A stretch of DNA of 64,000 nt from Bradyrhizobium guangzhouense (GTDB lineage: Bacteria; Pseudomonadota; Alphaproteobacteria; Rhizobiales; Xanthobacteraceae), in contig NZ_CP030053.1 of the NCBI RefSeq assembly GCF_004114955.1, positions 4,774,001-4,838,000 on the forward strand, written 5' to 3'. Below the pieces are notes generated by a model. The model was not told where the DNA came from, did not search any database, and saw only the letters and a program-made list of their open reading frames with translations. A program made the translations under genes and the position numbers. Of this stretch, positions 31,001 to 45,986 are shown piece after piece. Positions within the stretch are counted from its first letter, which is position 1, and each line of letters opens with the position of its first letter.

Positions 31001-31078
31001 AACGACGTCACTCCCACCGGCGCCCGCTTATGCTGCGGACGCCCAGCCTATTCGTTCGCGCGACGGTTGCGAAGGGGG

Positions 31079-31107
31079 TTGCCGGACCACAACGCGTGGT
31101 CCGGCAA
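31079..31107 (-). other. Intercistronic hairpin between ytfQ and ytfR
   Basis: A perfect 12-bp stem (TTGCCGGACCAC at 31079-31090, GTGGTCCGGCAA at 31096-31107) with a 5-nt loop lies 10 bp beyond the ytfQ stop. There is no following T-run. The position after a binding-protein gene suggests mRNA stabilisation or partial termination. Confidence 0.65.
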
Positions 31108-31117
31108 GACGCCCGCC

Positions 31118-32083
31118 TCAGTAACCGAGACCCTTCTTGCTATCGTATTCCTTCTGGGGATTGTCGGCGGCGGTAAGCAGCCTGGATTCGGTCTGGATCC
31201 ACTTCGGCGGAACCGTGCCCTTCTCCTTGAAGGCCGCGACGGCGTCGAAGGCCGGGCCGGCCATGTTCGGCGTCAACTCGACGGTGGCATTGGCCTCACC
31301 GGCAACCATCGCCTTGAAGATGTCTGGCACTGCGTCGATCGACACCGTGAGGATGTCCTTGCCCGGCTTGAGGCCGGCTTCCTTCATGGCCTGAATCGCG
31401 CCGACCATCATGTCGTCGTTGTGGGCGTAGACCGCGCAGATGTTCTTGCCACCGCCTTCGGCCTTGATGAAGCTCTCCATGACTTCCTTGCCCTTGGCGC
31501 GGGTGAAGTCACCGGTCTGGCTGCGCACAATCTTCAGATTGGCGTGCTTGGCGATCGCGGTGTCAAAGCCCTTCTTGCGGTTGGCGGCGACGCTGGCGCC
31601 GACCGTGCCCTGCAATTCGACGATGTTACAGGCCTTGTCGCCGACAGTCTTGGCCAGCCAGTTGCCGGCCACTTCGCCTTCGTGGACGCTGTCCGAGGTG
31701 ACGGCGGTCAGATAGAGGTCCTTGCCCGAGGGATCGATGTCGCGGTCGAGCAGCACGACCGGAATCTTGGCTTCCTTGGCTTCCTTCAGCACCGCATCCC
31801 AGCCGGTCGAGACGACGGGGGCGAGGAAGATCGCATCGACGTTCTGCGCGATGAAGGAGCGGATCGCCTTGATCTGGTTTTCCTGCTTCTGCTGCGCGTC
31901 GGCAATCTTGAGATTGACCTTGCGCTTGGTGGCCTCCTGCTTGGAGACCGAGGTCTCAGCTGCGCGCCAGCCGGATTCAGATCCGATCTGAGAGAAGCCG
32001 ACGGTGAGCTCTGCGGCATTGGCCGGCAGCGCAAGCAACAACGCGGCAGTAGCGCTGGCAGCAAAAAGGGCTTTGAGGGTCAT
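31118..32083 (-). CDS. ytfQ: Sugar-binding periplasmic protein YtfQ-like
   Basis: Periplasmic binding protein of 321 residues, signal peptide cleaved near residue 24 (LPANA). It is strikingly like E. coli YtfQ: VGFSQIGSESGWRAAET, KIADAQQKQENQIKAIRSFIAQ, ELQGTVGASVAANRKKGFDTAI and SGDFTRAKGKEVMESFIKA-type segments. YtfQ binds galactofuranose and galactopyranose; relatives bind arabinose. ATG at 32083 opens the signal peptide and is preferred over a TTG six codons earlier. Confidence 0.93.
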   Translation of the reverse strand: MTLKALFAASATAALLLALPANAAELTVGFSQIGSESGWRAAETSVSKQEATKRKVNLKIADAQQKQENQIKAIRSFIAQNVDAIFLAPVVSTGWDAVLKEAKEAKIPVVLLDRDIDPSGKDLYLTAVTSDSVHEGEVAGNWLAKTVGDKACNIVELQGTVGASVAANRKKGFDTAIAKHANLKIVRSQTGDFTRAKGKEVMESFIKAEGGGKNICAVYAHNDDMMVGAIQAMKEAGLKPGKDILTVSIDAVPDIFKAMVAGEANATVELTPNMAGPAFDAVAAFKEKGTVPPKWIQTESRLLTAADNPQKEYDSKKGLGY

Positions 32084-32394
32084 GAGGCGTGTGTCTCCCA
32101 AGTGTTATCCGGGGCGTCCACGGTATCATGACACCCTCAGGCCGACCTTCAGGGCGGCGAGAGGGACTATTTCACGGAAGCTCGCGTCCGTATAGTCATA
32201 TTATTTGACTATTTAGGCTAATGATGTGGACGCGTGCGATCTACACTCCCTGCGTTATCACCTGATTATATGCCATTTAAGGATGTCCCCATTTTTGTGA
32301 AAGTACGTCGCGGCCGCGCTCGTCCGGGACATGACGTTCTCAGGGAAATTCGCCTGTGCGATCCGCTGCGACAGGCGGCAGACAAGCGAAAAGG
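32084..32394. other. Gene-free promoter region of the ytf operon
   Basis: This 311-bp stretch holds no convincing gene. It includes an AT-rich segment around 32190-32225 with a 21-bp palindrome (annotated separately), so it is the likely promoter of the ytfQ operon. The remainder shows nothing distinctive. Confidence 0.6.
32192..32212. promoter_or_regulatory. Candidate GntR operator upstream of ytfQ
   Basis: ATAGTCA at 32192-32198 and TGACTAT at 32206-32212 are perfect 7-bp inverted arms around an AT-only 7-bp spacer, 108 bp upstream of the ytfQ start. The dyad architecture suits the GntR-family regulator encoded in the same operon. Confidence 0.5.
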
Positions 32395-33567
32395 CTAGAT
32401 CAGCCTACGCTGCGCGAGGTTCTTCATCAGCGCGCCGATGCCGAAAGTCCAGGGCTCGCATTCGTCGCTGGTTCGCATGCGATTGACGAGCTTGCCGAGC
32501 TGAGGGGCGGAAATGGTGACGATGTCGTCGCGCTTGTGGGTGAACCCCTGCCCAGGCGCATCACGATCCTTGACCGGCGCGAACATCGTGCCGAGGAACA
32601 GCACGAAACCATCGGGATATTGATGCACCTTACCGATGGTCTGCGCGACGAGATCGGTCGGGTCGCGGCTGATCTTGCTGATCGAGGAATGGCCGTTGAG
32701 GACAAAGCCGTCAGCCCCCATCACGTTCAGGCTGATGTCGAGCTTGCGCGCGTCGTCGAGCGTGAAGGTGTCGTCGAACAGGCGCAGCAGCGGACCGATC
32801 GAGCAGGACGCATTGTTGTCCTTGGCCTTCGATAGCAGCAGCGCCGAGCGGCCCTCGAAATCGCGCAAATTCACATCATTGCCGAGCGCACCGCCGACGA
32901 TCTTGCCGTGACTGGAGACGAACAGCACGAGCTCCGGCTCCGGATTGTTCCAGGTCGACTTCGGATGCAGCCCGGCGTCCATACCGGTGCCGACCGATGA
33001 CATGGTCGGCGCCTTGGTGAAGACCTCGGCATCGGGGCCGATGCCGACTTCAAGATATTGGCTCCAGGCGTTCTGATCGATCAGCACCTGCTTCAGATGC
33101 ATCGCCTGGTCTGAACCCGGCTTGAGCTTGGACAGATCGTCGCCAATCAGCCGCGTCACTTCCTTGCGAATGGCTTCGGCCGAGGCCGGGTTGCCCTTGG
33201 CGCGCTCCTCGATGACGCGTTCCAGCATCGAGATCGCGAAAGTGACACCCGCGGCTTTCAGGGTCTGAAGATCCACGGGCGCGAGCAGCCAGGGCTTCTT
33301 CGGATCGCGCCCATCAGGCGCCGTGTTGCCGACGATGGCTTCGAGATCACCGATGCGCTCGCCCTTGGTCGTGCCAAGTGCCTTGGCCGGACTGTCCTCC
33401 TCGCAGAGGGCGCTGACGGTCGGAAACTTGGCGGTGACGTCGAAGACGCCGTCTGCGCGCACCGCGACCACGGCCGGACCGTTCGCCTGCGGCAGCCAGA
33501 CGCGGCCGACCAGCGTTCCCTTCGTTCCATCCTCGGGGAGAAGGTCTCTAACCGTCAAATTCGTCAT
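32395..33567 (-). CDS. 2-keto-3-deoxy-pentonate dehydratase-like protein (FAH family)
   Basis: Fumarylacetoacetate-hydrolase-fold protein of 390 residues. Segments such as LLAPVDLQTLKAAGVTFAISMLERVIEERAKG, WNNPEPELVLFVSSHGKIVGGALGNDVNLRDFEGRSALLLSKAKDNNASC and GKVHQYPDGFVLFLGTMFAP resemble, from memory, the Caulobacter XylX 2-keto-3-deoxy-D-xylonate dehydratase (EC 4.2.1.141). That enzyme converts a 2-keto-3-deoxypentonate to 2-oxoglutarate semialdehyde. ATG at 33567 is chosen; the upstream frame is shadow. The neighbouring sugar genes support an oxidative pentose role. Confidence 0.82.
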   Translation of the reverse strand: MTNLTVRDLLPEDGTKGTLVGRVWLPQANGPAVVAVRADGVFDVTAKFPTVSALCEEDSPAKALGTTKGERIGDLEAIVGNTAPDGRDPKKPWLLAPVDLQTLKAAGVTFAISMLERVIEERAKGNPASAEAIRKEVTRLIGDDLSKLKPGSDQAMHLKQVLIDQNAWSQYLEVGIGPDAEVFTKAPTMSSVGTGMDAGLHPKSTWNNPEPELVLFVSSHGKIVGGALGNDVNLRDFEGRSALLLSKAKDNNASCSIGPLLRLFDDTFTLDDARKLDISLNVMGADGFVLNGHSSISKISRDPTDLVAQTIGKVHQYPDGFVLFLGTMFAPVKDRDAPGQGFTHKRDDIVTISAPQLGKLVNRMRTSDECEPWTFGIGALMKNLAQRRLI

Positions 33568-33703: not shown

Positions 33704-34681
33704 CTATGCGCCTGCGCGCGCCTTGCGGGCAGCGATCTGCTGCAGCGCCCAGCGTGCGTTCTTGCGGACATCGGGATCAGCATCGTCGGCGATGACGGCC
33801 AAAAAGGCCTCACCGTCGGGATGGGCGATCTCGCCGAGCGCGGCGGCCGCCTCTTTCCGCAAATTCGCCTGGTCATGATTGACGCAATTGCCGATCGGAC
33901 GCACCGCGCGCTCGATCTTCATCCTACCGAGGCTGCGGATCGCCTTCAGCCGCACCTGCCAGAATTCGTCGCCGAGCGCACCAACGAGCTGGTCGGCCGC
34001 GATTGATCCGTTGACATTGAGTCCGAGCGTCTCCGCGGCCATCTCGCGAACCATCCAGTCAGCGTCCCTCAATGCGCGCGTGATCGTCTCGGCCGCCGGC
34101 TTCATCTGCGAGAACGCCAGCGCACTGACGGCTGCACGCCGGACATGCGCATCGGGATCGTTGATCAGCGCAGTCAGCGCGGGGATGGATTCTTCCAGCT
34201 TGAGGAATCCGATCACGCCGATCGCCTGCACGCGCACGGCCGCATCGGAATCCTGCAGCGCTTCGAGCGCCGGCTTGAGCGTAGCCTTGCAGCGCAATTC
34301 CTTGAGCGCACGCAACGCGCCCATCCGGACGAAGGCGTGCGCATGCTTGACCAGCGGCAGGATGACATCGGCGCAGGCGGGATCCTTGAATTCGGCCATG
34401 CTGTCGGCCGCGGCGGCGGCAACGATCCGTTCAGGATCAACCAGCAGCTTCACCAGCGCACTCGCCGCTTCAGGTCCGTCGAACTCGCCGAGCGCCATCG
34501 CCACCTGCTGGCGCACGCCGGCGTCGGGATCGGCGACCATGTTGGCGAGATGCGCAACCGCTGCGGGATCACCGGAATGGCCGAGCGCGATGATCGCGAC
34601 GCGGCGCTCGGCGGGATCTGCGGCCTGGAGTCGCTCGTCGGCATCTTCGAGATCGTCGTAGGATTCGAACGGGCTCGACAT
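33704..34681 (-). CDS. HEAT-repeat protein
   Basis: All-helical HEAT-repeat protein of 325 residues built of about eight repeats, each near 31 residues, with the recurring pattern DPDAxVRxxAxxALGxxxxxxA (for example DPDAGVRQQVAMALGEF and DPDAHVRRAAVSALAFS). No enzymatic domain or signal peptide is visible. ATG at 34681 is two bases from the stop of the ferredoxin gene, so the two are one transcript. HEAT proteins of this size act as docking or assembly scaffolds; in this cluster it may hold the ferredoxin and flavoprotein together. That role is inference. Confidence 0.88.
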   Translation of the reverse strand: MSSPFESYDDLEDADERLQAADPAERRVAIIALGHSGDPAAVAHLANMVADPDAGVRQQVAMALGEFDGPEAASALVKLLVDPERIVAAAAADSMAEFKDPACADVILPLVKHAHAFVRMGALRALKELRCKATLKPALEALQDSDAAVRVQAIGVIGFLKLEESIPALTALINDPDAHVRRAAVSALAFSQMKPAAETITRALRDADWMVREMAAETLGLNVNGSIAADQLVGALGDEFWQVRLKAIRSLGRMKIERAVRPIGNCVNHDQANLRKEAAAALGEIAHPDGEAFLAVIADDADPDVRKNARWALQQIAARKARAGA

Positions 34682-34683
34682 GG

Positions 34684-34917
34684 TCACCTCAAGAGGTAGG
34701 GAATGTTGACGGTGACCGCTCCAGTCGGGCAATCGGCCTCGCAGGGCATGCAGTACCAGCACTCGTCATAGGCCATATAGGCCTTGCCGGTCATGTCACT
34801 GATGCGCAGCACGTCGAGCGGGCAGACGTCGACGCAAACGGTGCAGCCCTTGTCGGCGATGCATTTGGCGTCGTCGACGACCACCGGAACCGATGTCTGA
34901 TAGGACGCGAGAGGCAT
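34684..34917 (-). CDS. Ferredoxin, two [4Fe-4S] clusters
   Basis: Small ferredoxin of 77 residues. The first cluster motif is CIADKGCTVCVDVCP (C-x5-C-x2-C-x3-CP) and the second is CWYCMPCEADCP (C-x2-C-x2-C-x3-CP), so eight Cys ligands are present. It resembles the AprB-like electron-transfer partners of flavoprotein reductases. It lies 31 nt after the AprA/FrdA-like flavoprotein gene and presumably shuttles electrons between it and the ferredoxin-NADP reductase of the cluster. Confidence 0.92.
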   Translation of the reverse strand: MPLASYQTSVPVVVDDAKCIADKGCTVCVDVCPLDVLRISDMTGKAYMAYDECWYCMPCEADCPTGAVTVNIPYLLR

Positions 34918-34948
34918 GTGATGTCTCCTGTTGCTCTGTTGCGGTGGA

Positions 34949-36691
34949 TCAGGCAGTGGCGCGGATGCGTTGCTTGTCGTAGAGATCCTTCTCGTCGTCG
35001 GCGATCGGCACGACGTAAGGCTCGACGGCGCGCTTCTCGCTGGTCATCTTGCCGTTCTGTTTGCTCAGCAGCGTGTGGCAGAACCAGTTCTCGTTGTCCT
35101 TCTCCGGGAAATCCGTGCGCCAGTGGTAGAGGCCCCAGCGGCTCTCCTCGCGATAGAGCGAGGCATGCACGGCCATGTCGGCGCAATCCATGATCGACTG
35201 CACTTCGAGCGCGCGCAGCAGCTCGTGAGCGTTGCGCGCGATCATGCGCTCCTGCATGTCTTCCCGCGTCTCGGCGAGACGGCGCATGCCGAGCTCGTAT
35301 TTGCGCGTGACCTTCGGCGGCTGGAGATAATCATTCACCAGGCGACGGGTCTTGTACTCGACCTGGTTCGGCGGAATGCCGTCCTCGCGCTTGGTCGGCG
35401 CCAGCACGCGGTCGCGTTCTTTCGCAACATCCGCCGCGTCGAACTCCGCAAAATCGTGGCTGTCGGCAAACTCCATCGCGTCGATGCCGGCGACCGAACC
35501 GTTGGTGAAGGCGCCGAGCATGTAATTGTGCGGCACGCTCGCCATGTCGCCGGCGGCATAGAGGCCCGGCACGGTGGTGCGGGCATTATCGTCCACGAAC
35601 ACGCCGGAGGCGCTATGGCCGGAGCAGAAGCCGATCTCGGAGATGTGCATCTCGATCGAGTCGTTGCGATAGTCGACTCCACGTCCCTGCTGAAACAAGC
35701 CGCGCGTTGGACGCTCGACCTTGTGCAGCGTGGATTCGATCTCGGAGATGGTGTCGGGGTGAAGATGCTTGAGCTGGAGGAACACAGGCCCCTTGCCGGA
35801 CAAGAGCTCGTTGTAGAACTCGAGCATCATCTGGCCGGACCAGTAGTCGCATTCGATGAAGCGCGATCCCTCGTTGTTCGCCGTGAAGGCGCCGAAGGGG
35901 CCGGCGACATAGGCGCAAGCCGGACCGTTATAGTCCTTGATCAGCGGATTGATCTGGTAGCATTCGAGGTTCGCGAGCGCCGCGCCGGCGTGATAGGCCA
36001 TGGAATAGCCGTCACCGGAATTGGCGGCGTTCTCGTAGGTGCCGAACATGTAGCCGGAGGTCGGCAGTCCAAGGCGACCGGCGGCCCCCATGCAGAGGAT
36101 CACGGCCTTGGCCTTGATGACGAGGATCTCGGCGGTGCGGGTGTTGACGGAGATCGCACCCGCGATCCGGCCGTCGCTAGACTTCAAGAGCCGCGTCGCC
36201 ATGTAGCGGTTTGAGATCAGGATGCGGGCGCGGCGGAGCTGACGGTAGAGCGCCTTCTTCACGGTCTCGCCGTTCGGCATCGGCAGAACGTAGGTGCCGA
36301 TGTGATGCACTTTCTTGACGGCGTAGTCGCCGTTCTCGTTCTTCAGGAAGCGGATGCCGAAACTGTCGAGCTCTTCGATGATCTTGTAGCAGTTTTGCGC
36401 GTATTTATAGACCGCCTTCTGGTCGACGATGCCGTCATTGGCAATCGTGATTTCCTTGGTGTACTGCTCCGGCGTCGCGTAGCCGGGGATGACGGCATTG
36501 TTCAAGCCGTCCATGCCCATCGAGATCGCGCCGGAGCGCTTGACGTTGGCCTTTTCGAGCAGGACGACGTTCGCCTTCGGGTTCTTCAGCTTCGCCTTCA
36601 GCGCCGCCATCGGGCCGGCCGTGCCGCCGCCAATGACGAGCACGTCGCAGGAAACCTCCGAAAGTCCGTCGACGATCTGATCTAGTGCCAT
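34949..36691 (-). CDS. AprA/fumarate-reductase-like FAD flavoprotein
   Basis: Flavoprotein of the fumarate reductase/succinate dehydrogenase/adenylylsulfate reductase alpha family, 580 residues. The FAD motif is DVLVIGGGTAGPMAALKA near residue 16, followed by VLLEKANVKRSGAISMGMDGLNN, which is AprA-like, and VPGLYAAGDMASVPHNYMLGAFTNGSVAG near the end of the FAD domain. ATG at 36691 was chosen from the onset of the family fold. It is followed by a ferredoxin as AprA is by AprB, but no sulfate adenylyltransferase is nearby, so true APS reductase function is doubtful. Substrate unknown. Confidence 0.87.
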   Translation of the reverse strand: MALDQIVDGLSEVSCDVLVIGGGTAGPMAALKAKLKNPKANVVLLEKANVKRSGAISMGMDGLNNAVIPGYATPEQYTKEITIANDGIVDQKAVYKYAQNCYKIIEELDSFGIRFLKNENGDYAVKKVHHIGTYVLPMPNGETVKKALYRQLRRARILISNRYMATRLLKSSDGRIAGAISVNTRTAEILVIKAKAVILCMGAAGRLGLPTSGYMFGTYENAANSGDGYSMAYHAGAALANLECYQINPLIKDYNGPACAYVAGPFGAFTANNEGSRFIECDYWSGQMMLEFYNELLSGKGPVFLQLKHLHPDTISEIESTLHKVERPTRGLFQQGRGVDYRNDSIEMHISEIGFCSGHSASGVFVDDNARTTVPGLYAAGDMASVPHNYMLGAFTNGSVAGIDAMEFADSHDFAEFDAADVAKERDRVLAPTKREDGIPPNQVEYKTRRLVNDYLQPPKVTRKYELGMRRLAETREDMQERMIARNAHELLRALEVQSIMDCADMAVHASLYREESRWGLYHWRTDFPEKDNENWFCHTLLSKQNGKMTSEKRAVEPYVVPIADDEKDLYDKQRIRATA

Positions 36692-36753
36692 CTCTTGCTC
36701 CTGGTTCGCCGGTGTCCGGCGCCTTTGCATCAGATTTGTTCAGGTGGTTGTCC

Positions 36754-36776
36754 GGCGATAGCAATTAGTTGTCGCC
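36754..36776. promoter_or_regulatory. Cluster motif site A (CAATTAGTTG) upstream of the flavoprotein
   Basis: The decamer CAATTAGTTG at 36762-36771 lies inside an imperfect 23-bp dyad with GGCGA/TCGCC ends. It is about 70 bp upstream of the flavoprotein start and belongs to a set of four related sites in this cluster. Confidence 0.55.
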
Positions 36777-36792
36777 TGAGGCCGATTTGGCC

Positions 36793-37566
36793 TCAGCGCT
36801 CGACAAAGGCTTTCTCGATCACGAAATGGCCGGGCTGGCTGTGATTGCCCTCGACGAAGCCGCGCGCGGTAAACATCGCGGGGAGTTCCTCAAGCATCGC
36901 CGGGCTGCCGCACAGCATGATGCGGTCGGTCTCGATATCAAGGCCGGATTGTCCGATATCGTCGAACAGCTGATTGGAGGCGATCAGGTCGGTGATGCGG
37001 CCGCGATTCCGGAACGGCTCGCGGGTCACGGTCGGATAGTAGACCAGCTTGTCACCGATCAGCGGCCCGAAGAATTCGTGATTGCGCAGGCCGTCGACGA
37101 GATGTTCACCATAGGCCAGTTCTGAGACTTGGCGGCAGCCGTGGGCGAGCACGATGGTCTCGTAGTTCTCGTAGACATCAGGGTCCTTGATCAGGCTCGC
37201 GAAGGGCGCAAGCCCCGTGCCGGTCGAGAGCAGCAGCAGGCGCTTGCCCGGGATGAGATTGCCGGTGATCAGCGTGCCCGTCGCCTTGCGGCCGACCAGG
37301 ATGATGTCGCCTTCCCGGATCTTCTGGAGGCGCGAGGTCAGCGGGCCGTCCTGCACCTTGATCGAGAAGAATTCGAGTGCTTCCTCATGATTGGCACTGG
37401 CCATGCTGTAGGCGCGCATCAACGGCTTGCCGTTGACCTCGAGCCCGATCATCGCGAACTGCCCGTTCTGGAATCGGAAGCCGGGATCACGCGTCGCGGT
37501 GAAGCTGAACAGCGAGTCGGTCCAGTGTCTGACCGACAAGACCGTTTCCTTTTGAAATGCGCTCAT
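36793..37566 (-). CDS. fpr: Ferredoxin-NADP reductase
   Basis: Plant-type FNR-fold flavoenzyme of the bacterial Fpr type, 257 residues. FAD contact motif MRAYSMAS (RxYS), NADP-binding STGTGLAPFASLI, MLCGSPAM, and a C-terminal AFVER are visible. It transfers electrons between NADPH and ferredoxin. It precedes the flavoprotein-ferredoxin-HEAT genes in the same direction with a 101-bp gap that contains site A. It is divergent from the DUF971 gene and carries site B about 77 bp upstream. Confidence 0.93.
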   Translation of the reverse strand: MSAFQKETVLSVRHWTDSLFSFTATRDPGFRFQNGQFAMIGLEVNGKPLMRAYSMASANHEEALEFFSIKVQDGPLTSRLQKIREGDIILVGRKATGTLITGNLIPGKRLLLLSTGTGLAPFASLIKDPDVYENYETIVLAHGCRQVSELAYGEHLVDGLRNHEFFGPLIGDKLVYYPTVTREPFRNRGRITDLIASNQLFDDIGQSGLDIETDRIMLCGSPAMLEELPAMFTARGFVEGNHSQPGHFVIEKAFVER

Positions 37567-37643
37567 AGTCTCTCCTCAGTCCTCGTTGAGCACAACGTTT
37601 CGGAGAGAGCAGAGTCCGGCAATTCGTAAGTGACATTCCCGGT

Positions 37644-37653
37644 CGATTAGTTT
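37644..37653. promoter_or_regulatory. Cluster motif site B (CGATTAGTTT) upstream of fpr
   Basis: CGATTAGTTT lies 77 bp upstream of the fpr start, in the same relative orientation and at nearly the same distance as sites A and D have to their genes. On the fpr coding strand it shares the ten bases ACTAATCGAC with site D. Confidence 0.5.
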
Positions 37654-37692
37654 CACATTTCGCCAACGCTGATCGAAGACGCGTCACCCCGG

Positions 37693-37702
37693 CAATTAGT
37701 TG
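37693..37702. promoter_or_regulatory. Cluster motif site C (CAATTAGTTG) upstream of the DUF971 gene
   Basis: CAATTAGTTG is identical to site A and extends to the dyad GCAA-N4-TTGC. It lies 48 bp upstream of the DUF971 start, in the divergent promoter region that it shares with site B. Confidence 0.5.
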
Positions 37703-37750
37703 CTATCCGCGCGGGCGAGCGTCGACGTAGAGAGCATCAGGAGGTTCGTC

Positions 37751-38053
37751 ATGACCATGACCCTGGTGGCCCCAACCGTCGCCGACTACGAAGCAAGCGC
37801 CGATCTCGCAGCGCTGCTCGTCCGGACGGCCGAGGGCGACGCGCTTTGCGTGCCTGCCGAAAAGCTCCGCCTCTCCTGCAAATGCGCCCACTGCACCCGC
37901 GCCCGCTTTGACGGTCGCTTCCCGGACGCGTTTCCGGGGATCGCGATCACCGAGATCGGCAATCTCGGTTATGGGCTGAACATCTCGTTTTCGGATGGGC
38001 ACAACAGGGGGATTTACCCAAAACCCTATCTCCTGAGCCTGGCCGGACGGTAA
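37751..38053 (+). CDS. DUF971 (GBBH-like N-terminal domain) protein
   Basis: Small stand-alone DUF971 protein of 100 residues. The motif CKCAHCTRARFDGRF carries three Cys, and the C-terminal GLNISFSDGHNRGIYPKPYLLSL is the domain's hallmark (F-DGH-GIY-YL). AGGAGG seven bases upstream fixes the start at 37751. DUF971 also occurs at the N-terminus of gamma-butyrobetaine hydroxylase and fused to ApbC/HCF101-type Fe-S carriers, so a role in Fe-S assembly for the adjacent ferredoxin system is possible but unproven. It is divergent from fpr. Confidence 0.85.
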   Translation: MTMTLVAPTVADYEASADLAALLVRTAEGDALCVPAEKLRLSCKCAHCTRARFDGRFPDAFPGIAITEIGNLGYGLNISFSDGHNRGIYPKPYLLSLAGR

Positions 38054-38125
38054 GCGCCCGTTTGCCCCCATCTGGCACGGACATTGCTCCTCTTTAGAAC
38101 GGTTTGAACGTTCCGGAGGCAGTTA

Positions 38126-38899
38126 ATGTTGCAAGCGGCAAGTGCAGTGCGCGGGACCGTCCCCCCGGCAGTCCGGCCTGCGGGCAGTTCCTCGCTGCTG
38201 CTGACCGAGAACCAGCAATGGATCGGCGGCCCGCCGCCACTGATGGACAAGCTCTCGCCGCGCGAGCGCGAGCTGGTGTTGAAGCAGGGCCGGCGAAAGG
38301 TGCTCAACCGCGGGCAGACGCTGTTCAGCCAAGGCGGCAAACATGATGGAATCTGGCTGATCGAAAGCGGCCGAATCCGCGTCTTCTACACCTCGCCGCT
38401 GGGCCGCGAGATCACACTGGCCTACTGGCATGTCGGCAATTTCGTCGGCGGCCCCGAAGTGTTCGAAGGCACCGTGCATCAATGGTCCGGCGTCGCATCC
38501 AGCAATTGCAGCGTCGTGCACCTGCCCGGAAAGGAACTGCGATCCCTTGCCGCAGAGATCCCGAGCCTCGCGATCGGTCTGATCGAGGGCCTCACCTTCA
38601 AAGGCAAATGCTATTCGGCGTTGGCCCAAATGCTGGGAACGCGCTCGATCACGCAGCGCCTTGCACATCTGCTCTTGCATCTCGTCGATCTCTACGGCGT
38701 CGAGGATGCCGATGGCCGGGTGATCGCGGCGGCGTTCACCCATGCCGACATCGCCCACATGGTCGGCGCGACCAGGCAATGGGTCACGATCAGCCTGAAG
38801 CGGATGCAGGAGAAGGGAATCGTCCTGACCAAGCGCTCGCAGATCGTGGTCTGCCGGACCGACGTACTGGAGGAGATGCGCGGCCACGCATCCGACTGA
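38126..38899 (+). CDS. CRP/FNR-family transcriptional regulator
   Basis: CRP/FNR-type regulator of 257 residues. A cyclic-nucleotide-binding-like domain covers about residues 50-165 (LFSQGGKHDGIWLIESGRIRVFYTSPLGREITLAYWHVGNFVGG) and a winged HTH follows (FTHADIAHMVGATRQWVTISLKRMQEKGIV). There is no N-terminal Cys cluster, so it is not an oxygen-sensing Fnr of the classical kind. GGAGG precedes the ATG. Being embedded between the reductase and importer genes, it is the prime candidate for recognising the four CRATTAGTTK sites. Confidence 0.9.
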   Translation: MLQAASAVRGTVPPAVRPAGSSSLLLTENQQWIGGPPPLMDKLSPRERELVLKQGRRKVLNRGQTLFSQGGKHDGIWLIESGRIRVFYTSPLGREITLAYWHVGNFVGGPEVFEGTVHQWSGVASSNCSVVHLPGKELRSLAAEIPSLAIGLIEGLTFKGKCYSALAQMLGTRSITQRLAHLLLHLVDLYGVEDADGRVIAAAFTHADIAHMVGATRQWVTISLKRMQEKGIVLTKRSQIVVCRTDVLEEMRGHASD

Positions 38900-38984
38900 G
38901 CGAATTTGCTGCCAGGGCCGATGCACAGGCAAGCGGCTTTATAGTGCAGGACTGCCCAAGGAGTATGCAATCAGCTTTTCCCGG

Positions 38985-38994
38985 CAACTAATCG
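38985..38994. promoter_or_regulatory. Cluster motif site D (CAACTAATCG) upstream of the NosL-fused binding protein
   Basis: CAACTAATCG is the reverse complement of CGATTAGTTG. It lies about 86 bp upstream of the binding-protein start (74 bp if the earlier ATG is used), matching the spacing of sites A and B. Confidence 0.55.
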
Positions 38995-39080
38995 ACTACC
39001 GCGGTCATTCCGGATTTGCCCTGTCCACGCCCTCACCCAATCATGGCAACCGCAGCACATCCAACCGAATGAGGATGAGA

Positions 39081-40502
39081 ATGGTCCGCCATCTTCCCAC
39101 GCTCTCGATCGCGATGTCGGTGACGTCGCTGGCGCTATTCCTCGCGCAGCCGGCCTCGGCAGAAACCGTCACGCTCGGCATAGGAACGCAGGACACCACG
39201 ACCAACACGGTGACCGCTGGAACTGTGGTGCGGCAGCTCCATCTTCTCGAAAAGTACCTGCCGACGTCAGGCAAATACGCAAACATCAAATTCGAGATCG
39301 AGTGGCAAAACTTCACCTCGGGCCCACCCGTCACCAATGCGATGATGGCGAACAAGCTGCAGATCGGCATGATGGGCGACTATCCGCTGATCGTGAACGG
39401 CTTCACCTTCGACAGTAATCCGGAGAGCAAGAGCCGCCTGATTGCAGTTGCCGCCTACAGCCTCGCCGGCTCCGGTAACGGCATCGTCGTCCACAAGGAC
39501 TCGCCCTATTACGATCTCGCCGACCTCAAGGGCAAGCTCGTGAGCGTGCCGTTCGGCTCCGCCGCACACGGCATGGTGCTCAAGGCGATGCAGGACCGCG
39601 GTTACCCTGACGACTTCTTCCAACTCGTCAGCCAAAGCCCGGAGGTCGGCTCGACCAATCTTCAGGAAAAGAAGATCGACGCCCACGCGGACTTTGTCCC
39701 CTTCGCCGAGCTCCTGCCGTTCCGCGGCTTTGCGCGAAAGATCTTCGACGGCGTCGAGACCAATCTGCCGACCTTCCACGGCGTCGTGGTGCGCACCGAC
39801 TTCGCCGAGAAGTACCCCGAGGTCGTGGTCGCCTACGAAAAGGCCCTGATCGCCGCCAATGCGTGGCTCCGCGCCGATCCGAAACTGGCCGCCGAAAAGA
39901 TCCAGGAATGGACCGGCATCAACAAGGAGGTCGTCTACATCTTCCTCGGCCCCGGCGGAAACATGACCACCGATCCGACCATCAAGCCAACGCTCATCGA
40001 CGCAGCCGCGGCTGACGTCAAAGTGCTCCAGAAGCTCGGCCGCATGAAGGAGTTCGATCCGAAGAAGTGGGTCGACGACAGCTACATCCGCAAAGCCTAC
40101 GCCGAGATGAAGCTCGACTATGATACCCAGCTTGCGAGCACCAAGAACTACGAAATCACAGGCGAAGACGCCTTCTGCAAGAAGCCGATCACCGATCCGC
40201 GCAAGGCCGGCGAGGTCTGGGTGGATGAGGCAGGCATCATGCCGTTCTCGTCCGCCGCCTGCACGCTCGGGGCCTATGCCGACTTCAAGGCCAAGGGCAA
40301 GAAGATCAACGTCGCTTACGTCTTCGACACCACACGCGGCATCAAGCTGTTCGCCGACCAGGCCTTCTTTGCGGTGGGCAATGGCGACGTCGCACCGTTC
40401 CTGCTCAAGAAGGACGCGGAGGCCTATGCCGCCAAGATCAGCGGCAAGGTGCTCGGCTTCGACGACGCGGTGAAGGCGGCCGTCAGCGGAGGCAAGACGT
40501 GA
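39081..40502 (+). CDS. ABC transporter substrate-binding protein with C-terminal NosL-like domain
   Basis: Periplasmic binding protein of 473 residues, unusually long for its family. A signal peptide is cleaved near residue 27 (AQPASA). Residues to about 340 match SsuA/TauA/NMT1-type binding proteins (MMANKLQIGMMGDYPLIVNG, DLADLKGKLVSVPFGSAAHGMVLKAM). From about residue 360 a separate domain resembles NosL copper chaperones: WVDEAGIMPFSSAAC, then FAVGNGDVAPFLLKKDAEAYAAKISGKVLGFDD. The canonical NosL CGM is not present, though Cys and Met residues are. ATG at 39081 has GAGGA at ideal spacing; ATGs at 39069 and 39075 are alternatives. It heads an importer operon. Confidence 0.85.
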   Translation: MVRHLPTLSIAMSVTSLALFLAQPASAETVTLGIGTQDTTTNTVTAGTVVRQLHLLEKYLPTSGKYANIKFEIEWQNFTSGPPVTNAMMANKLQIGMMGDYPLIVNGFTFDSNPESKSRLIAVAAYSLAGSGNGIVVHKDSPYYDLADLKGKLVSVPFGSAAHGMVLKAMQDRGYPDDFFQLVSQSPEVGSTNLQEKKIDAHADFVPFAELLPFRGFARKIFDGVETNLPTFHGVVVRTDFAEKYPEVVVAYEKALIAANAWLRADPKLAAEKIQEWTGINKEVVYIFLGPGGNMTTDPTIKPTLIDAAAADVKVLQKLGRMKEFDPKKWVDDSYIRKAYAEMKLDYDTQLASTKNYEITGEDAFCKKPITDPRKAGEVWVDEAGIMPFSSAACTLGAYADFKAKGKKINVAYVFDTTRGIKLFADQAFFAVGNGDVAPFLLKKDAEAYAAKISGKVLGFDDAVKAAVSGGKT

Positions 40503-41410
40503 GCAGTCCCGCCCTCGTCAGACATCCCGAGGACAGCATGCCGGCAACAGCCATCGCCAAGGCGGGCCCCGCGCCCGCCGTCACCCCCCCGGTCACACCG
40601 CCTTCTTTCGGCACGCTTGCGCTGCGCTGGTACCGGCTGAACCAGGGCCGGCTGCGCGCAACTGCGATCGGCATCATGTCGCTGCTCGCCTTCCTGCTGG
40701 TCTGGCACCTGCTCACGACCTATCGCGTCGTGTTCTTCGTGCGCTTCATCAACGTGCCAACGCCGCTTGAGGTCTATGCGAGCTTCGCCAAGGCGATCCA
40801 CGACCCCAAGTTCCTGATGCACATCGCGCTGAGCTGCCGGCGCATCTTCATCGGCTTCTCGCTCGCCGCCCTTGTCGGCGTGCCGCTTGGCTTGATCATG
40901 GGCCGCTTCAAGCTGGTGCACGAGATCATCTTCCCCGTGGCGGAAGTGCTGCGGCCGATCCCGGCGATCGCCTGGGTACCGATGGCGATCATGCTGTGGC
41001 CGACCAACGAGCAGAGCATCGTCTTCATCACTTTCCTCGGCTCGTTCTTCCCGATCCTGGTCAACACGCTGCACGGCATGTCGCTGGTCGATCCCGTGCT
41101 GGTGCGCGCCGCGCAATGTCTCGGCGCGCGCGAGCGCTCGATCTTCCGCGAGGTGTATTTTCCGGCCTCGCTGCCGCACATCTTCACCGGCCTTACCGTC
41201 GGAATGGGCGTGGCCTGGGTGTCGCTGATCGCGGCCGAGATGATCTCGGGCCAGTACGGCATCGGCTATTTCACCTGGGAGGCCTATTCGCTGGTCCAGT
41301 ACGCCGATATCGCCCTCGGCATGATCGCGATCGGTGTGCTTGGCCTCGGCTCGAGCCTGCTGATCCGGGGCGCGGGACACCTGGTGATGCCGTGGAGATC
41401 GACGAGATGA
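40499..41410 (+). CDS. ABC transporter permease, sulfonate/nitrate/taurine type
   Basis: SsuC/TauC-like inner-membrane permease of 303 residues. After a Pro/Ala-rich N-terminus, LIMGRFKLVHEIIFPVAEVLRPIPAIAWVPMAIMLWP and the EAA loop VRAAQCLGARERSIFREVYFPASLPHIFTGL are diagnostic. It starts with GTG in a GTGA overlap with the binding-protein stop, so the fused binding protein and permease are translationally coupled. Confidence 0.92.
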   Translation: MSSPALVRHPEDSMPATAIAKAGPAPAVTPPVTPPSFGTLALRWYRLNQGRLRATAIGIMSLLAFLLVWHLLTTYRVVFFVRFINVPTPLEVYASFAKAIHDPKFLMHIALSCRRIFIGFSLAALVGVPLGLIMGRFKLVHEIIFPVAEVLRPIPAIAWVPMAIMLWPTNEQSIVFITFLGSFFPILVNTLHGMSLVDPVLVRAAQCLGARERSIFREVYFPASLPHIFTGLTVGMGVAWVSLIAAEMISGQYGIGYFTWEAYSLVQYADIALGMIAIGVLGLGSSLLIRGAGHLVMPWRSTR

Positions 41411-42279
41411 GCGAGATGCTTGCGAGCGAACCGAAGGGCCATATCGAGGTCAAAAACTTCTCCCTCAGCTACGACAGCATTGAGGGGCCTGTGCAGGCCG
41501 TCACGGACACGCAAATCCATGTGAAGCCCGGCGAATTCGTCTCGATTGTCGGCCCCTCCGGCTGCGGAAAATCGACGCTGCTCAATGCCGTCGCGGGCTT
41601 CCTCAAGCCGACCACGGGCATCGTCACCGTCGACGGAGAGCGTGTGAACGGCCCCAGCGCCGAACGTGGCATGGTGTTCCAGCAATACTCGCTGTTTCCC
41701 TGGAAGACGGTGCGGGAGAACGTCGAGTTCGGGTTGAAGATGCGCGGCATGGCGCGCTCGCAGCGCGAACGCGCGGCGCGCACGCTGCTAGGGCTTGCTG
41801 GCCTGGAGGCCTTTGAAAAGCATTATCCGGAGAAACTCTCCGGCGGCATGAAGCAGCGCGTCGGCATCGTCCGCGCGCTGGCGACGGGCCCGAAGGTGCT
41901 GCTACTGGACGAGCCGTTCGGGGCGCTCGACGCGCAGACGCGCGTCATCATGCAGCAGATCCTCACAAATATGTGGCAGCGCCTGAAGATCTCGGTGCTG
42001 TTCGTCACCCACGACATCGATGAGGCGATCTTTCTCTCCGACCGCGTCTACTGCATGACCGCCCGTCCCGGCTCGATCAAGGCGGAGATTCCAATTCCCT
42101 TGGAGCGGCCGCGGCAGCAATCGATGATGATGTCGTCGGAATTCCTGGCGCTGCGCCGCGGGCTGATGTCGCTGATCCGCGAAGAGAGCCTCAAAGCGAT
42201 GGGCGGCGAGATCAACGACATGGGCATGCAGGGGCTCAACATCGAACTGCACGGCCATTCGCTGGCGGACGTGATCTGA
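41407..42279 (+). CDS. ABC transporter ATP-binding protein, sulfonate/nitrate/taurine type
   Basis: SsuB/TauB-like ATPase of 290 residues. Walker A GPSGCGKST, Q-loop MVFQQYSLFPWKTV, signature LSGGMKQRVGIVRAL, Walker B VLLLDEPFGALDAQT and the switch His in VTHDIDEAI are all present. ATG at 41407 overlaps the permease stop by ATGA. It completes the three-gene importer and is followed by hairpins shared with the convergent yeiH gene. Confidence 0.92.
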   Translation: MSEMLASEPKGHIEVKNFSLSYDSIEGPVQAVTDTQIHVKPGEFVSIVGPSGCGKSTLLNAVAGFLKPTTGIVTVDGERVNGPSAERGMVFQQYSLFPWKTVRENVEFGLKMRGMARSQRERAARTLLGLAGLEAFEKHYPEKLSGGMKQRVGIVRALATGPKVLLLDEPFGALDAQTRVIMQQILTNMWQRLKISVLFVTHDIDEAIFLSDRVYCMTARPGSIKAEIPIPLERPRQQSMMMSSEFLALRRGLMSLIREESLKAMGGEINDMGMQGLNIELHGHSLADVI

Positions 42280-42337
42280 TTTAGCGGCGATGTCGGTTTC
42301 GTCGGGTCGGCAAAGCGAAAGCGTACCCACCCTTTTT

Positions 42338-42366
42338 CGCCTCACGCGGAACTGGTGGGTGAGGCG
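42338..42366. terminator. Hairpin between convergent importer and yeiH genes
   Basis: CGCCTCAC at 42338-42345 pairs with GTGAGGCG at 42359-42366. An overlapping alternative stem uses ACCCACC at 42325-42331 and GGTGGGT at 42354-42360. T-rich or A-rich tracts flank it on both sides, so it could terminate transcription from either direction. Confidence 0.5.
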
Positions 42367-42406
42367 CTTTCGCGCCTTTGCTTAATCTACGGCACCTTCG
42401 CGTCCC

Positions 42407-43465
42407 TCACTTGAACCAGTGCACCAGCGCGATGCTGATCCCCAGCAGCAGCATCAGCGACAGTGTCACCGCGGCCGTCACCCGGCCACCGACATTGGCG
42501 AGCACCTTCACGTCGACGCCGAGGCCCAGCGCTGCCATCGACACCACCGTCAGGAAGGTTGTGATCTTCGTCACCGGCCCGACCACCGTGGCCGGCACGA
42601 TCTCGAGGGAACGCAACGTCGCGAGCGCGAGGAAGCCGAGGATGAACCAGGGGACCAGGCGGAAGAACCCGACATTGGTCTTCTTGGCGCCGGTCTGCCA
42701 GCGCGAGGCGACCAGCGAGAGACCGACGACGACAGGGCCGAGCATCAGCACGCGCATCAGCTTGACCAGCGTGCCGATCTGCGTGGAAATCAGCCCCGCC
42801 GGCACCGTCGCCGCGAGCACTTGGGGCACGGCATAGACGGTTAGTCCTGCGAGAATGCCGTACTGCGTGGCGGTGAGCTGCAACAGCGGGATCAGCAGCG
42901 GCAGGCCCAGCACCATCATCACGCCGAGAATGGCGGTGAATGAGATCGAGGATGCAATCTCCTCGCTGTTAGCGCCGATGATCGGCGCCACCGCCGCGAT
43001 CGCGGAGTTGCCGCAGATGGAATTGCCGCAGGCAATCAGGATCGACAGCCGCGTCGACAGCCCGAGCATGCGGCCCAGACCAAAGGAGACGCAGAGCGCT
43101 ATCACCACGACTGCGGCGATCGAAACGAGCAGCGCGATGCCGGAGGCCGCGATGGCGGCAAAGCTGATCGAGGCGCCGAGCAGCATGACCGCGACCTCCA
43201 GGAGCTGCTTGGCGCTAAAAGCGATGCCGGCCTGCCAGCGCGGCGCCGGCTTCCAGAAGCTGCGCAGGGCCATCCCCAGCAGGATGGCCATCACCAGCGC
43301 CTCGATATAGGGGTGCTCGAACACGCCAAGCTCGGCCCGCTCCAGCAGCGCCGAGACGCCCGCCACGGCGATGCACAGGAGAATGCCGGGAATCAGCGCG
43401 ACGATGCGGCTAAAGGCAGTGGTCGGCTTGGCGGCGGCCGGGCTGGATGCTTGATTCTGCGACAC
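42407..43465 (-). CDS. yeiH: YeiH-family putative sulfate/sulfite exporter
   Basis: Integral membrane protein of 352 residues with about ten hydrophobic helices, member of the YeiH (UPF0324) family. The motif IACGNSICGNSAIAAVAPIIGA is diagnostic. Family members are annotated as putative sulfate exporters and are found in sulfonate catabolic clusters, where they may discharge sulfite or sulfate. It starts with GTG at 43465, preceded by GGGAGA, and is convergent with the importer. Its presence supports an organosulfur role for the cluster but YeiH also occurs alone elsewhere. Confidence 0.9.
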   Translation of the reverse strand: MSQNQASSPAAAKPTTAFSRIVALIPGILLCIAVAGVSALLERAELGVFEHPYIEALVMAILLGMALRSFWKPAPRWQAGIAFSAKQLLEVAVMLLGASISFAAIAASGIALLVSIAAVVVIALCVSFGLGRMLGLSTRLSILIACGNSICGNSAIAAVAPIIGANSEEIASSISFTAILGVMMVLGLPLLIPLLQLTATQYGILAGLTVYAVPQVLAATVPAGLISTQIGTLVKLMRVLMLGPVVVGLSLVASRWQTGAKKTNVGFFRLVPWFILGFLALATLRSLEIVPATVVGPVTKITTFLTVVSMAALGLGVDVKVLANVGGRVTAAVTLSLMLLLGISIALVHWFK

Positions 43466-44075: not shown

Positions 44076-45986
44076 ATGAACATCGAATCTCCCCGCAAGC
44101 CGCTCGACCTCATCTCGGCCATTGCGGAAGCCGACATCCGCTGTCTCCTGATGGTGCTGGTGCACATGACCGGCGACGAACGCTGGCTTGAGCCACCCTA
44201 TCTGCCCAAACGCGACATCCGCTTGATTCCCGATCCCGAGGCCGGCGTGCCCCGCGAGATCCAGGACGAGATCCGCGCGGCCGTCGTCAGGCTCTTCGCC
44301 GACGGCACGCCAACGCCCGTCATCACCGATCCCGGCGAAAAGCTGCTGCTTAGAATGATGCGGGCCTGCCTCGGCGAGAACGTCGCATCGGAATATGCGC
44401 CGCTGATGCGCGAGGAGATGGGCTTTGTGTCGCGCGAGGCACGATGGACCAAGCGTCCATCGCAAGAGAAGCTCGCCGCGCAGCACGTGCTGATCGTCGG
44501 CGCCGGGGTCTGCGCCATCGCGCTTGCCGTCGCGCTCGGCCATCTCCGCATCCCCTACACCATCGTCGAGAAGAACGCCGAGCTCGGTGGCACCTGGTGG
44601 ATCAATCGCTATCCCGGCTGCGGCGTCGACACGCCCAACCACTCCTATTCCTACTCGTTCGGCTTGGGCAACGCCTGGACGCGCTATTTCTGCCAGCGCG
44701 AGGAGCTGCTCGGCTATCTGCTCAAGGTCGCGGACGAATACGGCATCCGCAAGCATCTGCGCGTCAACACTGAGCTGACGGCGTCGCGCTGGGACGAGGG
44801 CAAGCGACGCTGGATCTCGACGCTGAAGACGAGCAACGGCGAAGAGACCTTTGAGTCGACCGCACTGGTCTCGGCCATCGGCCAGCTCAACGATCCCTCC
44901 CGCGCGCAATTCAAGGGCGAGGAGAGCTTCAAGGGAACGATCCTGCATTCGGCGCTATGGTCCGATGACATCAGCCTCGACGGCAAGCACGTTGCTGTAA
45001 TCGGCACAGGCGCGACCTCGATGCAGCTGGTGCCGACGATCGCCGGCCGCGTCGCCTCGGTCACGGTCTACCAGCGCAGCGCGCAATGGGCGCGGCCGGT
45101 GAAAGGCTATGCCGATCCGATCACCGAAGGCGCGCGCTGGCTGCTCGCACATCTGCCATTCTATGTGCAATGGTATCGCTTCAACATGTTCTGGCGCTAC
45201 GGTGACGGCCTGTTGCCGTTCCTGCGCAAGGACCCGGCCTGGCCACATCCGGAGCGCGCCGTGAACAAGGGCAACGACCGGCATCGCCAGGAGCTGACCG
45301 ACTTCATCCTGACAGAGCTGAAGGATCGCCCCGACCTGATCGAAAAATGCGTGCCGACCTATCCGCCCTATGGCAAGCGCATCCTGCTCGACAACAACTG
45401 GTTCAAGACATTGAAGCTAGATAATGTCGAGCTCGTCACCGACACGATCGACCATTTCGATGAAAGCGGCATCATCGCGGCCGACGGCAAGCACCGCCCC
45501 GCCGACATCATCGTGGTCGCCACGGGCTTCAAGGTCACGGAGATGGCCGCCCGCCTCAACATCAGCGGCCGCGATGGCAAGACGCTGCGCGAAGCCTGGG
45601 CCAACGACAATCCGACCGCATTCCTCGGCCTCACGGTGTCCGATTTTCCAAACTTTTTCTGCATGCTCGGCCCGAACTCGGGCCCCGCCCATGGCGGCAG
45701 CGTCATCTTCCAGTCGGAATGCCAGAGCCGCTACATCTCGACCTGCCTCGTCGAAATGATCGAGAACGACCTCGCCGCCATCGATGTCCGCCGCGAGGTA
45801 CTCGATGACTATGTCAGCAAGGTCGACGCCGAGCACGAGGCGATGATCTGGACCCATCCGGGAATGAGCACTTACTATCGCAACGCAAACGGCCGCGTGT
45901 TTTCGGCGATGCCGTGGCGCTTCGTGGACTATTGGCGCATGACGCACGATCCCGACATGCGGCAGTACAGGCTGACGAAGGCGTAG
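44076..45986 (+). CDS. FAD-dependent Baeyer-Villiger-type monooxygenase
   Basis: Class B flavin monooxygenase of 636 residues. An N-terminal extension of about 130 residues precedes the FAD motif GAGVCAIALAVALG, a feature of the 4-hydroxyacetophenone monooxygenase group. GGTWWINRYPGCGVD is typical of Baeyer-Villiger enzymes, the second Rossmann motif is VIGTGATSMQLVPTI, and the fingerprint FxGxxxHxxxW reads FKGTILHSALWS, with Ser where Pro or Asp is usual. It would insert oxygen next to a ketone using NADPH. It is divergent from yeiH; substrate and regulation are unknown. Confidence 0.88.
   Translation: MNIESPRKPLDLISAIAEADIRCLLMVLVHMTGDERWLEPPYLPKRDIRLIPDPEAGVPREIQDEIRAAVVRLFADGTPTPVITDPGEKLLLRMMRACLGENVASEYAPLMREEMGFVSREARWTKRPSQEKLAAQHVLIVGAGVCAIALAVALGHLRIPYTIVEKNAELGGTWWINRYPGCGVDTPNHSYSYSFGLGNAWTRYFCQREELLGYLLKVADEYGIRKHLRVNTELTASRWDEGKRRWISTLKTSNGEETFESTALVSAIGQLNDPSRAQFKGEESFKGTILHSALWSDDISLDGKHVAVIGTGATSMQLVPTIAGRVASVTVYQRSAQWARPVKGYADPITEGARWLLAHLPFYVQWYRFNMFWRYGDGLLPFLRKDPAWPHPERAVNKGNDRHRQELTDFILTELKDRPDLIEKCVPTYPPYGKRILLDNNWFKTLKLDNVELVTDTIDHFDESGIIAADGKHRPADIIVVATGFKVTEMAARLNISGRDGKTLREAWANDNPTAFLGLTVSDFPNFFCMLGPNSGPAHGGSVIFQSECQSRYISTCLVEMIENDLAAIDVRREVLDDYVSKVDAEHEAMIWTHPGMSTYYRNANGRVFSAMPWRFVDYWRMTHDPDMRQYRLTKA

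Follow-up and report, generated by a model that had tools for sequence, protein, structure and literature searches.

Positions 33704 to 43465 of a 64,000-nucleotide stretch of the Bradyrhizobium guangzhouense genome (contig NZ_CP030053.1; hereafter the window) hold a gene set that combines a sulfonate-type ATP-binding cassette (ABC) importer with a ferredoxin-linked flavoprotein. The host genome measures 8.14 Mb, and the named homologs at 97–99% identity are from Bradyrhizobium. Reading of the open reading frames together with profile scans of the window proteins revealed ten intact genes filling the region; an earlier sequence-only reading had counted nine, and all the genes that it named are present with intact frames. 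The left block (Fpr, flavoprotein, ferredoxin and HEAT genes) is transcribed leftwards and the right block (DUF971, CRP-like regulator, binding protein, permease and ATPase genes) rightwards, with the YeiH gene facing the end of the latter. The features, with lengths in amino acids (aa), are as follows.

33704..34681, minus strand: HEAT-repeat protein, 325 aa (PF13646, E 1e-66)
34684..34917, minus strand: two-[4Fe-4S] ferredoxin, 77 aa, eight Cys, AprB-like position (sequence reading; PF12838, E 4e-8)
34949..36691, minus strand: AprA-like flavin adenine dinucleotide (FAD) flavoprotein, 580 aa (NF006131, 1061 bits, cut-off 587; PDB 8a8o, E 3e-63)
36793..37566, minus strand: Fpr-type NAD(P)H-ferredoxin reductase, accessory (PF00175, PF00970; PRK10926 134 bits, under the cut-off of 390)
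37642..37652, plus strand: conserved motif GTCGATTAGTT, in the gap that separates the divergent Fpr/flavoprotein genes from the DUF971/CRP genes (locus comparison)
37700..38053, plus strand: DUF971 protein (GBBH-like N-terminal, CxCxxC), probable iron–sulfur (Fe–S) or metal maturation factor (PF06155, E 2e-11)
38126..38899, plus strand: CRP/FNR-family regulator (PF00027, PF13545)
38986..38996, minus strand: second copy of GTCGATTAGTT, upstream of the importer genes (locus comparison)
39069..40502, plus strand: SsuA/TauA-like binding protein with a C-terminal NosL-like domain (domain, profile and structure comparisons)
40499..41410, plus strand: ABC permease, nitrate/sulfonate type (PF00528, E 9e-26)
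41419..42279, plus strand: ABC ATPase, nitrate/sulfonate type (PF00005, E 3e-34; TauB/NtrCD/SaoA-like, those models under cut-off)
42407..43465, minus strand: YeiH-family putative sulfite/sulfate exporter, accessory (PF03601, E 4e-70, 236.7 bits against a cut-off of 24.5)

The ATG of the HEAT gene at 34681 lies two bases past the ferredoxin stop, and the flavoprotein start at 36691 gives a protein of the same length as most close homologs. The YeiH protein scores 148.7 bits on TIGR00698, under the cut-off of 232.6, despite passing that of PF03601.

The flavoprotein and the binding protein were sought in 398 genomes drawn evenly from the host phylum, with a flavoprotein limit of E ≤ 1e-60. The flavoprotein was present in 21 genomes and the binding protein in 20, all of them inside the 21 (Fisher p 8e-33, relatives being non-independent); counted by genus, the numbers were 10 and 9 of 212 genera. 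The weakest flavoprotein match listed, at 5.5e-254, lies far from the limit. Among 146 genomes of the cyanobacterial phylum, five encode the flavoprotein (~1100 bits) and three the binding protein, all within those five, while two further genomes match at ~300 bits with proteins that score as adenylylsulfate (APS) reductase (800 bits, cut-off 557). Closer to the host, each of 60 relatives has some flavoprotein match at E ≤ 0.001, and matches of at least 68% identity occur in 19 of 36 same-genus genomes (one of these matches is broken into two parts and carries a stop) and in none of 24 genomes from other families of the order. The flavoprotein is also encoded in all ten genomes behind a choice of loci, nine without it in the stretch and one (L086) with it. 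The clustering of importer and flavoprotein genes is not due to chance, and in several phyla the importer has stayed with the module of flavoprotein, ferredoxin and HEAT protein, which supports the sequence-only reading on this point.

To separate core from accessory genes, we drew on a locus scan of at least 593 stretches (576 confirmed, 80 loci retained), together with plasmid loci and genome stretches; the gene table omits loci under 7,000 bases, except L092, and short stretches may hide genes. The 120 flavoprotein loci counted (113 distinct by flavoprotein DNA) reduced to 35 after 90% dereplication. The ferredoxin gene is present in all 35 and the HEAT gene in 34, and in the remaining one HEAT and flavoprotein are fused (L045, Tsukamurella, the sole actinobacterial flavoprotein locus seen; the fused form is NCBIfam PRK13800). 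The binding protein occurs in 33, a count biased upward by the fetching of many loci via that protein. A CRP, GntR or LysR-type regulator accompanies 30 loci, and DUF971 (18) or Mrp (8) together 26; Fpr is found in 5, YeiH in 6 and TauE in 3. Of the 46 distinct loci of the window type, 32 have a close copy of YeiH nearby and 4 more have a distant one. These results show that the core consists of the flavoprotein, the two-cluster ferredoxin, the HEAT protein and the SsuABC-like importer whose binding protein carries the NosL-like domain, with DUF971 or Mrp frequent. Most of the membership first proposed is thus conserved; Fpr and YeiH, given their low counts, are lineage additions.

In cyanobacterial loci, an Mrp/NBP35 gene (Pfam NUBPL plus Fe–S assembly domains; Fe–S carrier models match under cut-off) takes the DUF971 position. 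The plant protein HCF101 joins DUF971 and Mrp domains in one chain. Because Mrp replaces DUF971 in cyanobacteria and HCF101 unites the two, both may serve Fe–S maturation in the gene set, as this comparison suggests.

The importer is of the SsuA/TauA type and its binding protein has the same fold as SsuA and TauA, in agreement with the earlier SsuABC-like assignment, at scores under the curated cut-offs (TIGR01728, 121.9 of 163.5; TIGR01729, 71.7 of 304). Taken by itself, the window protein matches the NosL domain weakly (Pfam E 7e-4, 20.4 bits against a cut-off of 24), and a single-sequence PDB search with the C-terminal 117 residues reached NosL at E 0.29. At family level, 12 of 24 scanned members match PF05573 at E ≤ 1e-3 (best E 1.7e-7), and the family profile matches the solved NosL structure 7og7 (E 6.9e-5). 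NosL is not shown in the VIA list for the binding protein, which is filled by the large domain.

A second version of the binding protein occurs in the cyanobacterial regulator, a LysR protein with an extra C-terminal domain homologous to the binding protein (~30–37% identity, E to 4e-61). It was found in all three cyanobacterial binding-protein genomes of the 146-genome set, one copy containing a stop. LysR-type regulators of ~660–680 aa with an added binding-protein-like domain are encoded at L042 12349–14385 and L086 10022–11998, and in L042 the added domain is related to the binding protein of its own transporter. Since a cytoplasmic sensor is here built from a periplasmic binder, the ligand would seem to reach the cytoplasm unchanged. 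The sensor copy is without the NosL-like domain (matches end near position 349 of 478), and this bears on the idea that a metal, or a ligand with metal bound to it, enters by way of that domain and that the redox genes process a metal centre; the sequence-only reading had mentioned a metal-bound anion. The NosL-like domain of the binding protein speaks for such a role; the Cys of the window domain is, however, kept in only 4 of 12 aligned relatives, and the recurrent neighbours are sulfur genes. Given these features and the weak NosL match of the window protein, we rejected metal-ligand import, which we regard as very improbable.

Comparison of window-type loci uncovered the block GTCGATTAGTT in both intergenic regions, kept in 43 of 45 (first site) and 43 of 48 (second site) distinct loci, a conservation that close kinship explains in part. 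Within one mismatch, the window contains 2 sites against 0.34 expected, and 4 of 100 shuffles reach 2. The whole genome contains just two exact copies of the 13-base form GTCGATTAGTTKC, at window positions 37642 and 38984, so that either half of the cluster is preceded by one. Allowing one mismatch gives 7 sites genome-wide against 6 for a reversed control pattern, and the distinction is thus limited to exact copies. The 11-base motif also precedes the binding-protein gene in Methylobacterium radiotolerans and in another genome of the order (L016 and L168). GTCGATTAGTT is thus a putative operator, probably of the CRP-like protein.

A motif common to the upstream regions of both halves is relevant to whether the importer and the flavoprotein belong together at all, as they could be independent and merely co-travel on sulfur islands or plasmids without a common substrate. 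The set was found in proteobacteria of the alpha, beta and gamma classes, in Actinomycetota, in metagenome-assembled genomes of Verrucomicrobiota and in Cyanobacteriota, where three of the genomes bear the name Prochlorococcus. Plasmid copies are common (51 records), other sulfur genes are often near and gene order within the set varies, all of which would fit coincidence. Against it stand the shared motif, the presence of the flavoprotein in every binding-protein genome of the host-phylum sample, and the persistence of the pair where the genes are apart, as in G087, where they lie 2.9 Mb from each other. We therefore consider coincidence improbable. As examples of the genomic settings, on a Sinorhizobium chiapasense plasmid (L021) some 2 kb separate the set from nodA, with transporters for sulfate and sulfonates alongside, and an Acidithiobacillus caldus plasmid (L046) retains remnants of the set beside an ISL3-type element.

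The best PDB match of the flavoprotein is the alpha subunit of 3'-phosphoadenylylsulfate (PAPS) reductase from Methanothermococcus thermolithotrophicus (8a8o, 217 bits), followed by AprA (134) and succinate dehydrogenase (94). Foldseek also ranks PAPS reductase and AprA first, although the model used is poor (mean predicted local distance difference test score of 63) and the ranks are only supportive. The protein belongs to NF006131 (PRK08275) and falls under the cut-offs of both AprA models (TIGR02061, 163 of 641.75 bits; NF005331, 280 of 557), whereas the control proteins L208 and L209 reach 800 bits on NF005331. Profile scores and the 8a8o match support its description as AprA-like. An RSG FAD loop, N55, K243-D244 and H350 are kept in the family.

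The residues that would place the protein in the fumarate reductase branch are absent. Aligned with L201, an L-aspartate oxidase-like protein of the same genome and the sole reference row for this branch, the flavoprotein has N239-P240 in place of the HP of the HPT motif and Leu383 in place of the catalytic Arg of fumarate reductase and succinate dehydrogenase; Gly45 of the RSGA loop presumably occupies the position of the covalent-FAD His of those enzymes. A fumarate or succinate enzyme is unlikely on this basis. The label fumarate reductase/succinate dehydrogenase that databases attach to NF006131, which includes the window flavoprotein, and to the HEAT-fused PRK13800 is therefore probably misleading.

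The same residues inform the possibility that the flavoprotein acts as a dehydrogenase, oxidising an imported organosulfur compound and passing electrons to the ferredoxin. Its superfamily includes succinate dehydrogenase and L-aspartate oxidase, and 30 of the 35 dereplicated loci are without Fpr, as such a direction would allow. The HPT motif and Arg of that branch are nevertheless missing, its closest relatives of known structure are reductases whose target is an SO3 group, and Fpr and FdxA accompany the flavoprotein in some lineages, which together make a dehydrogenase rather unlikely. Because of these Fpr and FdxA genes and the kinship with reductases, our analysis favours the reductive direction over oxidation of the imported anion, two options between which the sequence-only reading did not choose.

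Neighbouring genes provide clues to substrate and product. Sulfite exporters lie near the flavoprotein in a minority of loci, which agrees with the sequence-only reading. In Prochlorococcus L085 and L086, YeiH stands directly behind the ATPase gene, and in cyanobacterial L078 and L080 TauE and then YeiH follow Mrp. Sulfonate genes lie near the set in several loci, and profile scans of the window proteins found no SsuD or TauD inside the window's set, as first reported. Two loci, L047 of Paraburkholderia and L044 of Gordonia, have no flavoprotein beside the importer and instead encode a sulfatase, the formylglycine maturase of that enzyme and a SulP transporter; the two sulfatases are 70% identical to each other and have a CTPTR motif and no visible signal peptide on reading of their sequences. 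Three plasmid records were searched for the flavoprotein: none was found in L047 or L044, and the Acidithiobacillus plasmid contains a fragment. Since the importer is paired with a sulfatase in these two loci and with the flavoprotein elsewhere, a sulfate ester or N-sulfonate brought in by it would be a fitting substrate for either enzyme, the sulfatase yielding sulfate and the AprA-like enzyme sulfite.

Several other genes lie in these surroundings. An unusual mix marks the sulfatase clusters on the Gordonia and Mycobacterium plasmids (L044, L223), where a gyrB-type topoisomerase gene is accompanied by a SulP gene and a pair of DUF202 genes. In some loci from different phyla (L086, L087, L184–L186, L137, L147), the set has as its neighbour a further importer of the SsuABC-like type, together with amidases of the allophanate-hydrolase family; such amidases turned up close by in 11 of the 92 loci counted before dereplication and in 2 of 35 after it (under other limits) and were given no weight. 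Reports on acesulfame-degrading strains describe sulfamate as a stoichiometric end product that the strains leave unused (PMC10413263, PMC6879467); the resemblance, an amidase and a TauE-like exporter near an anion importer, is an analogy only and was set aside as support. Paraburkholderia phymatum is reported to have a NifA-dependent sulfonate transporter (PMC8305402), and no P. phymatum appears among the 40 of 51 plasmid records listed, so that this comparison gave no link to the gene set. In the window itself, an FMO-like flavin monooxygenase gene (44076–45986), outside the conserved set, adjoins YeiH; the region is flanked by an alanine dehydrogenase gene (45997–47112) on one side and a fumarylacetoacetate-hydrolase-like gene (32395–33555) on the other, and sugar-type ABC transporter genes for a periplasmic binding protein and an ATPase with two ABC domains occupy 29459–32101.

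Taken together, the gene set is predicted to scavenge organosulfur by importing an SO3-bearing anion and releasing sulfite from it with ferredoxin electrons, a reading that we advance tentatively, at close to an even chance, and that draws support from the sulfite exporters beside some loci and from the two sulfatase loci. Its steps are, in order of certainty, import, electron path, attack on sulfur and fate of sulfite. The SsuA-like binding protein and ABC importer would bring a small SO3-bearing anion intact into the cytoplasm, where in cyanobacteria the LysR-type regulator would sense it through its binding-protein-domain copy. The reduced two-cluster ferredoxin would hand its electrons to the FAD of the flavoprotein, with the HEAT protein holding this AprA-like protein; the ferredoxin would be recharged by Fpr in some lineages and by photosynthesis in cyanobacteria, and DUF971 or Mrp would help Fe–S assembly for this module. 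The M. thermolithotrophicus PAPS reductase is reported to be an α2β2 assembly with a two-cluster ferredoxin-type subunit, for which attack of FAD N5 on the sulfur has been proposed (PMC10322725). Similarly, as proposed for AprA and PAPS reductase, the reduced FAD here would attack the sulfur to form an FAD–sulfite adduct, whose decay would give sulfite and the desulfonated remainder. The sulfite would enter assimilation, any excess leaving via YeiH or TauE in loci that have one of them. Among substrate classes, a sulfate ester or an N-sulfonate such as sulfamate would be the most likely.

Several observations weigh against this reading. The flavoprotein occurs without the binding protein, at the limit used, in 1 of 21 host-phylum and 2 of 5 cyanobacterial genomes, and the locus count of the binding protein carries the upward bias mentioned above. 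Fpr is scarce, and a YeiH or TauE exporter lies near the flavoprotein in just 8 of 35 loci. The sulfatase link consists of two loci, and a related Mycobacterium plasmid sulfatase cluster is without the importer in the stretch seen. In the active site, the Arg common to AprA and PAPS reductase is Leu241 in 19 of 19 aligned members, while the APS-reductase-scoring L208 and L209 retain it, as do 8a8o and Archaeoglobus fulgidus AprA, and the substrate loop around 117–126 has an insertion of about five residues (KVHH). The lost residue corresponds to the active-site Arg R265 of A. fulgidus AprA.

With that Arg lost and the loop altered, APS or PAPS is unlikely as the substrate, and R197, an invariant Arg of the family, is a candidate substitute. 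The comparison with AprA and FrdA-type active sites called for by the sequence-only reading therefore sets the window protein apart from AprA/PAPS reductase and from the fumarate reductase branch; because its residues differ from both, its chemistry may be new, as that reading had guessed. The same losses could allow another bond to be attacked, and the flavoprotein might reductively cleave the C–S bond of an imported sulfonate to give sulfite and a reduced carbon rest. The SsuA/TauA-type importer, the sulfonate genes near several loci and the sulfite exporters in some loci fit such cleavage. Two importer loci, however, carry sulfatases, which act on S–O or S–N bonds, and we know of no C–S bond cleavage by flavoproteins of the AprA/FrdA superfamily. 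We consider C–S cleavage unlikely, while giving it appreciable weight.

The set resembles M. thermolithotrophicus PAPS reductase (8a8o) and dissimilatory AprAB in pairing an FAD flavoprotein with a two-[4Fe-4S] ferredoxin-type partner and in keeping the RSG(A/C) FAD loop, the Asn (N55) and the His (H350); unlike them, it has Leu for Arg and an altered substrate loop, and it adds an importer and a HEAT protein. With SsuABC-SsuD and TauABC-TauD it shares the importer type and sulfur-gene surroundings, differing in having no oxygenase, an extra NosL-like domain and a ferredoxin-linked flavoprotein partner. AtsRBC-AtsA combines sulfate-ester uptake with an arylsulfatase; it resembles the two loci with importer and sulfatase, whereas the window's set is without a sulfatase. 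No description of the gene set was found in open-licence PMC papers, and one may exist elsewhere. We conclude that this is a real, conserved, multi-phylum system, proposed to scavenge sulfur by plausibly new chemistry, the pairing of an importer with a desulfurating enzyme being of an already known kind.

To our knowledge, the aerobic pathways described so far for gaining access to organic sulfur depend on oxygenases or hydrolases. The wider proposal, which we hold with more reserve than the scavenging role itself, is a reductive, oxygen-independent form of sulfur scavenging in aerobes, in which an AprA descendant would cleave an imported sulfate ester, N-sulfonate or sulfonate with ferredoxin electrons, giving sulfite without nucleotide-activated sulfate and bypassing its ATP-costly activation, in soil bacteria, root symbionts, methanotrophs and Prochlorococcus. 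The tight coupling of two genes makes the question directly testable, and flavoprotein and binding protein would provide a marker gene pair for metagenomes. The database label fumarate reductase/succinate dehydrogenase would be corrected for the flavoprotein family and, if true, a conserved ferredoxin-driven route in soil bacteria, root symbionts and Prochlorococcus would alter models of organic sulfur turnover.

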